A stretch of DNA of 64,000 bases from Marinomonas sp. KMM3893 (GTDB lineage Bacteria > Pseudomonadota > Gammaproteobacteria > Pseudomonadales > Marinomonadaceae): positions 372,001 through 436,000 of the forward strand of contig NZ_SJSC01000002.1 of the NCBI RefSeq assembly GCF_004352855.1, given 5' to 3'. The position numbers and the translations under genes were made by a program. The notes below the pieces were generated by a model. The model saw only the letters and a program-made list of their open reading frames with translations. It did not search any database and was not told the DNA's origin. Position 1 is the first letter of the stretch; each line of letters opens with the position of its first letter. Positions 40,465 through 45,360 of the stretch are shown here, piece after piece.

Positions 40465-40618
40465 ATCATGGGTCCTATTGATGAGTAGTCTGTGTGTTTT
40501 TATTGTGCGTTAAGCGTGAAAGAAAACCAAATGAAACAAAAGACGTTACACGGCATTAATCACGCTTTTGGTTAAGAATTGCAGGCAATGTGTTCTGCTT
40601 GACTCTTTTCTGTGCTCT

Positions 40619-40642
40619 AACGTGACTATTGTAAGTCACGTT
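40619..40642. promoter_or_regulatory. Perfect 9-bp inverted repeat upstream of the CofD-like operon
   Basis: AACGTGACT and AGTCACGTT flank ATTGTA, 71 bases upstream of the CofD-like start. A symmetrical 24-bp element of this kind suits a dimeric repressor. No T-tract follows, so terminator function is less likely. Confidence 0.5.
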
Positions 40643-40713
40643 AACACTTTTCCTCTTGTTGTCATGGTCTAGGTTATTTAAGGTAGTGCCAGTTCAATGG
40701 TTTTGAGGTCAAT

Positions 40714-41904
40714 ATGTCTAGCTCTTGTCGCATTTGGCGGCGCATGCAAATGCCTGATCTTGCTCGAATTCACCGTTACCAAAGTTTGCCTGAGCAAGGT
40801 CCCAAAGTATTATTTTTTAGTGGCGGTTCAGCACTGAATAAAATCAGTCGCGTGCTCAAAGGCTACACCCACCATTCTATACACCTTGTGACGCCTTTCG
40901 ATTCTGGTGGCAGTTCTGCTCGTTTGCGGGCTGAATTTGATATGCCGGCCGTAGGAGATTTGCGCAGCCGCTTGATGGCGTTGGCCGACGAAACCGTGAT
41001 GGGGCAACCTGAAGTCTATGCTTTGTTTACCCACCGTTTTGGTATGTCCGCTTCTTTGTCTGAGTTACGAGAAGAGCTTAAGCAGCTAGTGGATGGGTCG
41101 CATTCACTGATCAAACCGATTCCAAACCCCATGAGAGAGTTGATACAGACGCAACTTGGGGTGACTCAAGCGCAAATCAGCGACACCTTCGATTTGCGAG
41201 GAGCGAGCATTGGCAACCTGATTATTTCAGGTGGTTATTTGAATAACCAGCAACAGTTAGACCCCATAGTGTTTCTTTTCTCGCGTTTGACGAAGGCGCT
41301 TGGCGAAGTCAAAACCATATTGGATGCTCCTTACCATTTGAGCGTAGAGCTTGATAATGGCGAGATCATTCTAGGTCAGCACCGGATTACCGGCAAAGAG
41401 CATGCTGTGCTAGACAGTCCAATTAAGCGCATGTGGCTAAATAAAGGCTTAAAGCAGGTGTCTGCGATCAACAGTGAGATTGCCGAAGATCGTCGTGATC
41501 TCATTGAACACGCTGATTTAATTTGTTATCCACCGGGCAGTTTTTATAGCAGCGTGCTGGCTAATTTACTGCCTGTTGGCGTGGGTCGGGCGATTTGCCA
41601 GAACCCAAATCCTAAGGTCTATTTACCGAATTTGGGCGTGGACCCTGAGCAATTCGGTTTGTCGTTGATGACACAAGTAGAGCGCTTGGTTGCGACCGTA
41701 CTTAGCGACGCAAAATCCATGGAAGCCATTCAGTTTGGTGGTTTGGATTACCTCTTATTGGATGATCGTCATGATTATGGCGAGATTGATGAAAAGCAAT
41801 TGAGCTCGCTTGGTGTGAGCGTTATCAAGACGCCACTGATCGCTCAAAAAGAACATAAATATGATGAGCAAATGGTCGTTAAAGCCTTGTTATCTATGAT
41901 GTAA
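40714..41904 (+). CDS. CofD/YvcK-family protein (resembles CofD-like proteins of GAK systems)
   Basis: A 396-residue protein of the CofD/UPF0052 fold. The nucleotide/sugar-phosphate loop is KVLFFSGGSALNKISRVLKGYTHHSIHLVTPFDSGGSSARLR, then DMPAVGDLRSRLMALAD; ISDTFDLRGASIGNLIISGGYL, DSPIKRMWLNKGL and ADLICYPPGSFYSSVLANLL are CofD-family. The longer form recalls the CofD-related proteins grouped with GAK systems, but that system's HprK-like kinase and ATP-grasp partners are not next to it. CofD transfers phospho-lactate to F0; YvcK-like proteins bind UDP-GlcNAc. Enzymatic role here is unknown. GAGG lies five bases before the ATG. Followed by a two-gene signalling pair. Confidence 0.78.
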   Translation: MSSSCRIWRRMQMPDLARIHRYQSLPEQGPKVLFFSGGSALNKISRVLKGYTHHSIHLVTPFDSGGSSARLRAEFDMPAVGDLRSRLMALADETVMGQPEVYALFTHRFGMSASLSELREELKQLVDGSHSLIKPIPNPMRELIQTQLGVTQAQISDTFDLRGASIGNLIISGGYLNNQQQLDPIVFLFSRLTKALGEVKTILDAPYHLSVELDNGEIILGQHRITGKEHAVLDSPIKRMWLNKGLKQVSAINSEIAEDRRDLIEHADLICYPPGSFYSSVLANLLPVGVGRAICQNPNPKVYLPNLGVDPEQFGLSLMTQVERLVATVLSDAKSMEAIQFGGLDYLLLDDRHDYGEIDEKQLSSLGVSVIKTPLIAQKEHKYDEQMVVKALLSMM

Positions 41905-41932
41905 ATCTATTTTTCGGTTTTGGGAAATACGT

Positions 41933-42937
41933 ATGAGAAAGAGTGTATTAATTTGCGATGACTCAAGTATTGCTAGGAAGCAATTGGCAAAGACATTGCC
42001 AGCTGACTGGGACATTGACGTAGATTATGCCCAAGATGGACAGGAAGCCTTAGACATAATAGCGAAGAAGAAAATTGATATTCTTTTTCTCGACTTAAAC
42101 ATGCCCGTCAAAGATGGTTACCAAACATTAGAGGAGTTACGAGGCCGTGGGGCCATGCCCCATGTGTTGGTGGTGTCTGGTGATGTGCAGCCGCAAGCAG
42201 TGCAACGGGTAAAAGACCTTGGCGCAATTGCCTTTCATAAAAAGCCAATTCAGGTGGATGCCCTACGTGAGTCTCTTCAGTCTTTAGGTTTAATGGAGCT
42301 GGGTGTTCATTCGGTTGCCAGTGCTAGAGCGTCTGTTGTGGATGATTTTTCATTCTCAGAATGCCTGCAAGAAGTGTCCAATGTCGCGATGGGGAAAGCC
42401 GCCAGCGTATTGGCTGACATGCTCAATGTTTTTGTTAAATTGCCTGTGCCTACGGTGAATATTTTAGAGGTTAGTGAGCTGCAAATGGCGCTTGGGTATG
42501 GCTCGCAAGACAGTCGATTTTCTGCCATCTCTCAAGGTTTTGTCGGTGCTGGTGTTGCGTTTGAAGCCCTGCTTATTTTTAACGACACTAGCTTTCCTGA
42601 TATCGCCAAATTGTTGAATTCATCGGGAGAGGTTGATCGTGACAGAGAGGTCGAACTACTGATGGAGGTTTCTTCGGTGCTGGTTGGGCCTTTTATGGAT
42701 GCGCTTGGCAAGCAAATGAACATTGATTTCAGTTTTGGGCACCCAGCTCTACTGGGTCAGAATGTCAAAATGGCCAACCTCATTGATGTAAAAAGATCGA
42801 CATGGAAGCGCACGTTAACGGTAGAAATTGTCTACGAGATTGAAAATCACAATGTAAGTTGCGATTTGCTTTTGCTTTTTACGGAGGATTCTATTCCCGT
42901 GCTCGAAAACTTATTGTCTTATTTGGTTGAGGATTAG
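41933..42937 (+). CDS. Response regulator with REC and CheC-like phosphatase domains
   Basis: A 334-residue two-domain protein. Residues 1-120 are REC with acidic pocket DD (9-10), phospho-acceptor Asp54 in LFLDLNMPVKDG, and Lys in HKKPI. Residues about 135-334 resemble CheC/CheX/FliY phosphatases (CLQEVSNVAMGKAASVLADML, then EVELLMEVSSVLVGPFMDALGKQM). CheC domains remove phosphate from CheY-like proteins, so this looks like an auto- or trans-dephosphorylating regulator. It follows the CofD-like gene by 28 bases and precedes a diguanylate cyclase gene by two bases. Confidence 0.85.
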   Translation: MRKSVLICDDSSIARKQLAKTLPADWDIDVDYAQDGQEALDIIAKKKIDILFLDLNMPVKDGYQTLEELRGRGAMPHVLVVSGDVQPQAVQRVKDLGAIAFHKKPIQVDALRESLQSLGLMELGVHSVASARASVVDDFSFSECLQEVSNVAMGKAASVLADMLNVFVKLPVPTVNILEVSELQMALGYGSQDSRFSAISQGFVGAGVAFEALLIFNDTSFPDIAKLLNSSGEVDRDREVELLMEVSSVLVGPFMDALGKQMNIDFSFGHPALLGQNVKMANLIDVKRSTWKRTLTVEIVYEIENHNVSCDLLLLFTEDSIPVLENLLSYLVED

Positions 42938-42939
42938 CC

Positions 42940-43893
42940 ATGTCGAACTCTCTAGATGAAATGATGGAGCTGCATTGGCTGTTTGATATGCTCAACCATA
43001 TCGATCTGGGCCTTGTTGTGGTCGATCAAAATTACAAAATAACCCTGTGGAATAGCTTTATGGAAAACCACAGTGGCAAAAGCTCCTCCATTGCCAAAGA
43101 TCAGTCGTTATTCAATCTTTTTCCCGAAATAGACAAAGAGTGGCTGCAGCGTAAGTTAGATAATGTGATTGCCTTAAGGACATCCATTTTTATTTCTTGG
43201 GAGCAGCGACCTTACCTTTTTGCTTTTAAAAGCTACCGCCCCATTACTGGGCTGGCCGACAACATGTACCAGAATATCACCTTGCGCCCACTGGCCAACG
43301 CAGACGGTACTGTGAAGCATGTGTGCATTGCTGTTTATGATGTGACGGACACGGCGACCCATAAACAGGCGCTTTCATCGGCCAATCGTCAGCTTGAACA
43401 GCTCAGTAAAACCGATGCGTTAACGGAATTACACAACCGAGGCAGCTTAGAAAAAGCCCTGGGTATTATTTTTTCCGCGTATCAGAAGAAACCGAGCAGC
43501 ACGCATTCCTTAGTGATAGCTGATTTGGATTTCTTTAAGAAAATCAATGATCAATATGGGCATCCCATTGGAGACATCGTATTAAAAGAAGTCGCCAAAC
43601 TGATGATGGCATCGACACGTAAAGGCGATTTTATTGGTCGCTATGGCGGCGAAGAATTTGTCGTGCTTTTGCCTAATACACCCTCTTCAGGGGCCATAAG
43701 CTTTTGCGAGAAATTGCGCCAAAAGATCGAAGCGATGACGATAAAAACCGATAAAGGGGATATTAAAGTCACCATGAGTTTGGGAGTAGCCCAGCTGATG
43801 GAAGAAGATAAAACGTCGTCTGCTTGGCTGGTTCGAGCCGATGAAGCCTTGTATAAAGCAAAAGCCTCTGGCCGTAATCAAACGTTTGGCTAA
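42940..43893 (+). CDS. PAS-GGDEF diguanylate cyclase
   Basis: A 317-residue protein. Residues 10-140 form a PAS domain (MLNHIDLGLVVVDQNYKITLWNSFMENHSG), then a linker helix, and from about 155 a GGDEF domain. The active site is GGEEF (236-240, RYGGEEFVVLLP), the metal-binding strand LVIADLDFFKKINDQYGH is intact, and an inhibitory I-site RKGD (227-230) lies five residues before the active loop. It should make c-di-GMP with product feedback. Directly downstream of REC-CheC, which probably controls it. Confidence 0.92.
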   Translation: MSNSLDEMMELHWLFDMLNHIDLGLVVVDQNYKITLWNSFMENHSGKSSSIAKDQSLFNLFPEIDKEWLQRKLDNVIALRTSIFISWEQRPYLFAFKSYRPITGLADNMYQNITLRPLANADGTVKHVCIAVYDVTDTATHKQALSSANRQLEQLSKTDALTELHNRGSLEKALGIIFSAYQKKPSSTHSLVIADLDFFKKINDQYGHPIGDIVLKEVAKLMMASTRKGDFIGRYGGEEFVVLLPNTPSSGAISFCEKLRQKIEAMTIKTDKGDIKVTMSLGVAQLMEEDKTSSAWLVRADEALYKAKASGRNQTFG

Positions 43894-43904
43894 ACACAGC
43901 GAAT

Positions 43905-43938
43905 AAAAAGCCGCTCTTCAGGTATTGGAGAGCGGCTT
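43905..43938 (-). terminator. Terminator for the rimK-fusion gene
   Basis: GCCGCTCTTCA / TGGAGAGCGGC pair in a long stem. On the minus strand it is followed by TTTTTATTC, so it acts for the leftward gene; on the plus strand the T-tract is short (TTCG). Confidence 0.75.
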
Positions 43939-43971: not shown

Positions 43972-45360
43972 TTAGGCTTCTTTTGGCTTCATGAGTTGTC
44001 TTTCAATGGCCATTATCATGCGCACTGCGATGTCTTCATTGGTCGCGGTTTCTATGCCTTGTAACCCCGGTGACGAGTTGACCTCCAAGAGGAGTGGGCC
44101 TTTATTGGAGCGGATCAAGTCGACCCCCGCGACTTTTAAATCCATGGCTTTAGCGGCTTTAATCGCGATGCGCTTTTCTTCTGGAGTGATTTTAACCAAT
44201 TCCGCGCGACCACCTTGGTGGATATTGGCTCGAAATTCGCCCACCGCGGCAGTTCGCTGAATGGAAGCAACCACTTTCCCATCTACCACGAAGCAGCGTA
44301 AATCTTTACCGCTCGATTCCTTAATAAACTCTTGCACGAGAATGTTCGCGTTTAAGCTCTTAAACGCATTGATCACGCTGTCGGCCGCTTTGCGTGTTTC
44401 GGCCAATACCACGCCTGTTCCCTGAGTGCCTTCTAGCAACTTAATGATAAGTGGCGCGCCGCCAACCATATCAATGAGATCACCTGTGTCCAGAGGCGAG
44501 TTTGCAAAGCCTGTCGTCGGTATGTCTAAACCGTTGTCTAACAGTAACTGCAATGAGCGAAGTTTGTCTCGCGATTGGGCAATGGCGGTTGAGGTGTTTA
44601 AGCAATAAATACCCAATGACTCAAATTGTCGTAATAGCGTGCAGGCATAAAAGGTTTTGCTTGGACGAATGCGCGGAATCACAGCATCGAGGTCGTTTAG
44701 AATACGGCCTCCTCGATAATGAATTTCAGGGGTAGTCGCGTCCAATTTCATATAGCAGTTTTTGATGTTTAAAAACTGAATTTCATGGCCACGTGCTTCT
44801 GCCGCTTCGATGATGCGTCGGTTACTGTACAAATCTGGATTACTGGCCAATAAGCCGATTTTAAGGCCACCAGTGCGCATCTCAGGAGCCTTGTATAAAG
44901 ACGCTAAATCGTTCTGTAGGCGATCGCCAAGCAGGCAGTGACCTTCTGGGTCAACGAGAATGCGGCCGTTCATTGCTTCACGACCCAGTAACATGCGATA
45001 GCCCATGCTGTCTCGATCGGTGAGTGTTAACTCAACCACCCACGACTTTTCCCCTAGTGCTAAAGACGCACGAATCACAGGGCGCTTTTCTTTGTCACCG
45101 CTGGAGCTTTTTACCACGCGGTGGTCAATGATCTGCGCTTCACAATGCACCGTGATTTTACGGTTATCCTGTAATGGATGAACCTCAAAGCTGGTCCACT
45201 GCTCGCCATTCCGTGAAAAATACTGAATGTTAATCGCGTGCAAAGAAGAGGTTTTAGCGCCGGAGTCGATGCGCGCTTTTACCGCCGGAATGTTCAGAGA
45301 GGAGAAGGCACACCACTCTTCACTGCCGATGACCATTTTGGGTTCATTTAGTTGATTCAT
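43972..45360 (-). CDS. rimK: RimB-RimK fusion: retropepsin-like domain plus ATP-grasp glutamate ligase
   Basis: A 462-residue two-domain protein. Residues 1-140 are the RimB-like ATP-dependent protease fold with the aspartyl-protease motif [19 protein letters not shown] and [10 protein letters not shown]. Residues about 165-462 are RimK ATP-grasp: [95 protein letters not shown] and [28 protein letters not shown]. RimK adds C-terminal glutamates to ribosomal protein S6; RimB trims them. Having both in one chain suggests a self-contained add-and-remove editor. It converges on the GGDEF gene. Confidence 0.9.

Follow-up and report, generated by a model that had tools for sequence, protein, structure and literature searches.

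Do three closely spaced genes in the genome of Marinomonas sp. KMM3893 form one signalling system, or do they merely stand side by side? The genes lie at positions 40714-43893 of a 64,000-nucleotide stretch (contig NZ_SJSC01000002.1, positions 372,001 to 436,000), hereafter referred to as the window. Gene 1 encodes a CofD-like protein, gene 2 a receiver (REC) domain fused to a CheC-like phosphatase domain, and gene 3 (42940-43893) a protein with PAS and GGDEF domains. A preliminary description, made from the sequence alone, read them as a single operon in which the CofD-like protein would feed a cyclic di-GMP (c-di-GMP) switch. The gene positions, the intergenic distances (28 and 2 bases) and the domains given there agree with the three plus-strand open reading frames and with the Pfam and fold matches. 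As to function, the locus probably holds two independent units, namely a REC/CheC/PAS phospho-switch to which a diguanylate cyclase is attached, and a CofD-like protein of the GAK family.

CofD-like and REC-CheC genes are not linked outside Marinomonas

The preliminary description had proposed a neighbourhood survey of this CofD-like subgroup, and the survey speaks against its operon. We collected 25 non-Marinomonas genomes with a protein over the cut-off of the GAK-system CofD-like profile TIGR04357 (18 from the order, 5 from the class and 2 from the phylum sample; L100 and L191, under cut-off, were left out) and inspected flanks of at most about 10 kb. REC-CheC was found beside CofD in none of these 25 loci. 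Conversely, of the 372 genomes in the order sample that are not from Marinomonas, 128 encode REC-CheC homologs (E 1e-40), and no CofD gene was detected by tblastn within roughly 5 kb on either side in any of the 40 loci examined for neighbours. One of the latter (L169) has a match to the GAK ATP-grasp query beside a RimB-like gene, which is probably RimK. Nor is there any association across genomes: REC-CheC is present in 5/18 genomes with CofD vs 123/354 genomes without it (Fisher p 0.62). Together, these figures do not support the grouping of the three genes into one system. The neighbour that the CofD-like gene does have outside Marinomonas is the GAK cluster, which adjoins it in 18 of the 25 loci (17 with an ATP-grasp and an HprK-related kinase, and one with a phosphotransferase gene alone before the contig end).

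REC, CheC and PAS constitute the invariant unit

The receiver domain of gene 2 is recognized by Pfam with E 2.5e-22, and the CheC stretch scores 19.1 bits vs the gathering threshold of 22. The CheC assignment is firm because the best Foldseek match of the structure model (mean predicted local distance difference test score, pLDDT, 79; predicted template modelling score, pTM, 0.53) is CheC of Thermotoga maritima (2f9z_A; E 1.5e-11, TM-score 0.70 by target), and because the stand-alone CheC of a Caballeronia relative scores 37.6 bits against the same Pfam threshold. Phosphorylation site D54 of the receiver is kept in 38/38 aligned relatives. The first CheC site, E147-xx-N150 with P173, which we take to be the active-site motif ExxN...P, is kept in 40/40. 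Gene 2 shares with CheC/CheX phosphatases the fold and this first site; it differs in that CheC either is fused to a receiver or follows it as a separate gene, that a PAS gene is its partner, and that the second site is degenerate (E245-xx-S248; the last position is N in 20 of 40 relatives and S in 14). REC and CheC are separate adjoining genes in several relatives, and in three loci (L144, L148, L178) they lie in one frame, divided by a single stop codon. Given this single stop codon, fusion and fission of REC and CheC seem to be easy.

The PAS gene follows REC-CheC directly in 40/40 loci of the order outside Marinomonas, and the REC-PAS gap ranges from -7 to 12 bases, with a median of 2, in 30 Marinomonas loci. 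The part of the proposed operon that holds is thus the pairing of REC-CheC with PAS-GGDEF, which is real, conserved and tight in spacing. The PAS part is present in all 48 Marinomonas genomes, in 40/40 loci of the order and in 8/8 named plasmid or chromid records (8 of 18 matches were examined, from Pseudomonas, Vibrio, Salinivibrio, Aeromonas, Burkholderia and Caballeronia). GGDEF is attached in 31/48, 35/40 and 2/8 of these, respectively, and the others have PAS alone; the PAS-only versions include records of Vibrio, Salinivibrio, Aeromonas and Pseudomonas. The invariant unit is therefore REC, CheC and PAS, and GGDEF is optional. Where GGDEF is attached, the signature and the RxxD I-site are retained in 29 of 31 full-length Marinomonas proteins and in 34 of 35 proteins of the order; the domain is degenerate in two Marinomonas genomes (G035 and G042). 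Gene 3 itself carries GGEEF and an RKGD I-site, in line with its earlier designation as an apparent diguanylate cyclase with an I-site. No constant kinase was found upstream: the neighbours, whether annotated or scanned, vary (most other upstream genes lay outside the Pfam scan), and a hybrid histidine kinase adjoining the module was found by Pfam only in Caballeronia.

At least one pair of this kind is already in print. BCAM2837 of Burkholderia cenocepacia, likened to gene 2 by its description, has the same architecture of CheY and CheC domains and is predicted to share a transcript with genes for a diguanylate cyclase and a histidine kinase; the mutant swims and is defective in swarming, and CofD is not mentioned in the part of that report consulted (PMC3296584). 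In the plasmid collection, a record of B. cenocepacia matches the REC-CheC protein of the window at 37%. No further description of a CheC and diguanylate cyclase pair was found in a limited literature search.

The signalling cassette is exchanged without CofD

Six close Marinomonas relatives differ in whether PAS carries GGDEF. Their CofD-like proteins (90-95% identity) and the products of the downstream epimerase gene (88-97%) do not separate PAS-only from PAS-GGDEF strains. PAS is 91-96% identical within the two types and 68-72% between them, and REC-CheC is 90-96% identical within and 83-86% between. Between two of the six, the DNA is 84-98% identical in CofD and 94% in the gap; identity drops inside CheC to 66-67%, stays low in PAS (62-73%) and recovers in the epimerase gene (93-99%). 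Across the genus, a single change of PAS type is required on the PAS tree (support 99, starred) and on the tree of the C-terminal part of CheC (support 80), as compared to 4 changes on the tree of the N-terminal part of CheC and 7 each on the REC, epimerase (35 rows) and CofD trees; those forced by well-supported branches alone number 1, 1, 3 and 3 for CheC-N, REC, epimerase and CofD, respectively. G026 was left out of all trees, G046 out of the REC and CheC trees, and 13 of the 48 genomes had no usable epimerase frame. Judging from these alignments and trees, the signalling cassette is exchanged without CofD, which lies outside the exchanged stretch, and the joint travel of the C-terminal part of CheC and PAS fits a functional pair, though also simple adjacency.

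The short CofD-REC gap is peculiar to the window

The preliminary description had taken the tight spacing as an argument for a shared function. The gap between CofD and REC-CheC is 28 bases in the window vs 59 to about 320, usually 100-200, in the other 45 Marinomonas genomes in which it could be reliably measured (G026, with a frameshifted CofD, and G046, with a REC-CheC remnant, were left out of the counts). We rejected operon spacing as a sign of shared function because these 28 bases, the minimum of the 46 gaps measured, are the extreme of the genus.

We further scored 25 Marinomonas gaps for common blocks (L016 was left out). In 12 of them, a 22-base block located 60-70 bases before the REC-CheC start matches the consensus at 18-22 positions; shuffled sequences match at about 12 positions on average and 18 at most, a lenient control since the consensus was derived from the same gaps. 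The palindrome GTTACGTGACGTAAC lies inside this block in three of the 12 gaps. In 10 of the 25 gaps, a second block, 31-33 bases before the start, agrees in at least 10 of its 11 positions. The conserved palindrome GTTACGTGACGTAAC and the GTCATAGTATG block stand at a fixed distance upstream of REC-CheC (L006, L008, L009 and others) and are lost in the clade of the window. Neither the 22-base block nor the second block is present in the window or in M. pollencensis and M. flavescens, its closest relatives. A separate REC-CheC promoter is thus likely in many Marinomonas species. Such a promoter-like block before the signalling pair is present in 12 of 25 relatives and absent from the gap of the window, and scanning the region for promoters and terminators gave no more than chance-level results. 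In the window, read-through from cofD into REC-CheC is possible; it would be recent and no sign of a shared function. The palindrome GTTACGTNACGTAAC was rejected as a regulatory site in the window: nowhere in the genome is it matched with one mismatch or fewer, and its sole match in the window, with 3 mismatches, is at chance level. It may act in relatives only.

An orphan CofD-like protein of the GAK family

Gene 1 matches Pfam CofD with E 3e-36, and the solved folds closest to its model (a weak one, mean pLDDT 69) are YvcK/UPF0052 proteins, so that its earlier designation as a CofD/YvcK-fold protein stands as far as the fold is concerned. What was overlooked is the family: with 502.5 bits vs a cut-off of 340, gene 1 is a full-length member of TIGR04357. 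It falls under the YvcK cut-off (TIGR01826, 115 bits vs 196), and the F420 2-phospho-L-lactate transferase CofD (TIGR01819) is not among its matches at E 0.01. The GlmR/YvcK proteins of the UPF0052 family, UDP-sugar binders and accessory uridyltransferases, provide the closest solved folds and profile matches. We compared gene 1 with the GlmR/YvcK residues described in two studies (PMC5482804, PMC10128056), using a profile alignment to 2o2z, with Listeria residue numbers placed on gene 1 by counting rather than by aligning the Listeria protein. GlmR T14, N218, D40 and N198 correspond to S39, N306, D63 and N284 of gene 1, R301 is replaced by K382, and Y265 has no clear counterpart. Of the catalytic residues D40, D41 and N198, two out of three are matched, the second Asp, D41, being replaced by an invariant Ser, S64. 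This suggests a site for a nucleotide or nucleotide-sugar in which Ser takes the place of one catalytic Asp of GlmR, and gene 1 probably encodes a GlmR/YvcK-type binder of such a ligand.

The true F420 CofD of this organism is a separate gene, located between cofH and cofC on contig C9 (L001:272-3104), where the three genes are consecutive and each scores over the NCBIfam cut-off. This Marinomonas, judging from these matches, appears to make F420 precursors, the synthesis of which is unusual in gammaproteobacteria.

The likeness of the locus to the GAK system (TIGR04354, TIGR04355, TIGR04356 and TIGR04357; the phrase "GAK system" was not found in the literature searched) is confined to gene 1. 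The preliminary description had rightly noted that GAK partners are absent nearby; moreover, neither the ATP-grasp nor HprK-related kinase B exceeds its cut-off anywhere in the genome of the window (G000). The best ATP-grasp match (TIGR04356) reaches 82.1 bits vs 300, RimK-type ATP-grasp proteins scoring 78-82 bits, and the kinase (TIGR04355) has no match at E 0.001. Across the genus, the two enzymes co-occur in 36 of the 48 genomes, and the same 12, including G000, lack both (one of these, G041, is only 77% complete). The CofD-like protein is matched in 48/48 genomes, over cut-off in 47, the exception being the frameshifted G026. Such frameshift-broken genes, either pseudogenes or sequencing errors, are seen at two loci, L063 (G026) and L028 (M. 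pontica), and are the sole case seen in the genus. Where Marinomonas does have the GAK cluster, it is located apart from CofD: all six GAK loci read have a complete or almost complete cluster, and CofD belongs to none of them. On the CofD tree, GAK presence changes 7 times, 5 of these changes being forced by well-supported branches. The ratio of nonsynonymous to synonymous substitution rates (dN/dS) of CofD is 0.078 (G006-G034) and 0.029 (G000-G025; dS 2.4, near saturation) in pairs of GAK-less genomes and 0.028-0.063 in six GAK-bearing pairs. Because purifying selection persists in GAK-less genomes, CofD has a role without GAK, and the Marinomonas protein must function on its own where the ATP-grasp and kinase have been lost. 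In the most plausible course of events, the gene would have moved away from the GAK cluster, with purifying selection maintaining it afterwards. In four deep Marinomonas lineages (L059, L060, L061, L062), 5'-nucleotidase-like and GGDEF genes stand directly upstream of the CofD-like gene.

Alternative explanations and proposed mechanism

Several observations weigh against two separate units. The order CofD, REC-CheC, PAS is found in 47/48 Marinomonas genomes, as a functional link would also predict; the four deep lineages have another GGDEF gene (about 650 amino acids) directly upstream of CofD; no terminator-like site was found in the 28-base gap; and in 7 of the 25 CofD loci from other genera, the inspected flanks contain no GAK gene, three of these loci being cut by contig ends. 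With respect to the cassette, the single origin on the CheC-C tree has a support of just 80, the REC and CheC-N figures are soft, strongly supported branches forcing one change each, adjacency alone could explain the joint exchange of CheC-C and PAS, and contact between the two is predicted only. The gene order is weak evidence of linkage because the epimerase and ExoIII genes, unrelated neighbours further downstream, are nearly as constant. That CofD precedes the switch reflects synteny inherited within the genus. That one operon, at least in Marinomonas, lets a CofD-like protein sense or modify a nucleotide sugar and feed a c-di-GMP switch is, in our judgement, quite unlikely: constant gene order, a terminator-free gap and the retention of CofD after GAK loss, which implies some other role, are set against the missing linkage outside the genus (0/25 and 0/40), the promoter-like block in 12 of 25 species and a cassette exchange that leaves CofD out. 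Moreover, 17 of the 48 Marinomonas genomes have no GGDEF behind the same CofD, which is retained in 15 GAK-bearing and 2 GAK-less genomes of this kind, and this further weakens the claim that it feeds such a switch; in the 48th genome, G046, CofD and PAS are kept beside a REC-CheC remnant.

Two further explanations each concern one of the units. REC-CheC could simply be a response regulator by which the neighbouring diguanylate cyclase is activated, with PAS-only proteins as decayed copies. The receiver phospho-site is intact and the cyclase motifs are nearly always retained (29/31 and 34/35), as expected for such an ordinary two-component system; the PAS-only form, however, accounts for 17/48 genomes with one origin on the PAS tree (99, starred), persists as open frames of 152-162 amino acids that are 91-96% identical in three close relatives rather than decaying, and recurs in Vibrio, Salinivibrio, Aeromonas and Pseudomonas, so that we consider this explanation unlikely. 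As for gene 1, another ATP-grasp or kinase might replace the GAK enzymes and thereby keep CofD in GAK-less Marinomonas. RimK-type proteins do match TIGR04356 weakly, and one of them (43972-45360) is encoded 2 kb from CofD; their 78-82 bits nevertheless fall far below the cut-off of 300, RimK-type genes are also found in GAK-bearing genomes, and none of the 12 GAK-less genomes has an HprK-related kinase B match at E 0.001, which makes such a replacement improbable.

Two independent units thus remain the preferred explanation. For the switch, the domain make-up, the conservation of motifs, the invariant REC-CheC/PAS pairing and the optional GGDEF are established. A histidine kinase (or CheA) would phosphorylate D54 of the receiver, and the CheC domain, with its one conserved ExxN site, would either remove the phosphate or bind the phosphorylated receiver. 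The partner PAS protein would sense a ligand and couple to CheC, a putative role comparable to that of CheD, which regulates CheC in chemotaxis. Where GGDEF is attached, the state of the complex may set how much c-di-GMP is made, within the limit imposed by the I-site. The phosphatase activity of CheC, its contact with PAS and the direction in which the signal runs are inferred. The full combination, in which this phospho-switch is widespread in proteobacteria with PAS as a dedicated regulator of CheC, c-di-GMP synthesis is an option added or removed by cassette exchange at one chromosomal site, and the GAK CofD-like function is independent of the GAK enzymes, is put forward tentatively, as a proposal somewhat less likely than even to be right in every part.

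Instead of a supposed new metabolite-to-c-di-GMP system, the locus thus offers two testable statements. A CheC-type phosphatase with a constant PAS partner is found across much of Pseudomonadales and also in Vibrionales, Aeromonadales and Burkholderiaceae, its diguanylate cyclase domain being dispensable, and Marinomonas relatives with and without GGDEF among near-identical neighbours are natural experiments on the contribution of c-di-GMP. The GAK CofD-like protein kept in Marinomonas without the GAK ATP-grasp and kinase provides an entry to an uncharacterised family.

Features of the locus and neighbouring genes

The coordinates of all features are collected in Table 1. The closest named match of gene 1 is from M. 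pollencensis (88%).

Table 1. Features in and around the three-gene locus (positions in the window)
Feature	Position	Strand	Remarks
GAK-system CofD-like protein (TIGR04357), gene 1	40714..41904	+	396 amino acids, YvcK/GlmR-type fold; orphan here
28-base gap, gene 1 to gene 2	41905..41932	+	Genus minimum; without the promoter-like block of relatives
REC-CheC fusion, gene 2	41933..42937	+	334 amino acids; receiver D54; CheC E147-xx-N150 and P173
PAS part of gene 3	42940..43359	+	About residues 1-140; conserved partner of REC-CheC
Linker and GGDEF part of gene 3	43360..43893	+	GGEEF 236-240, RxxD I-site 227-230; optional in relatives
13-nucleotide inverted repeat (92%)	43908..43938		Between convergent GGDEF and RimB-RimK genes
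Perfect 10-bp inverted repeat TAACGTGACT/AGTCACGTTA	40618..40643		Upstream of the CofD-like gene

The perfect repeat upstream of the CofD-like gene has no counterpart at the same place in 26 named Marinomonas loci (27 compared). Downstream, convergent with the GGDEF gene, a minus-strand gene (43972-45360) encodes a protein of 462 amino acids that joins a RimB-like aspartic-protease domain to a RimK ligase, and the 13-nucleotide inverted repeat in between is likely a terminator common to the GGDEF and RimK genes.

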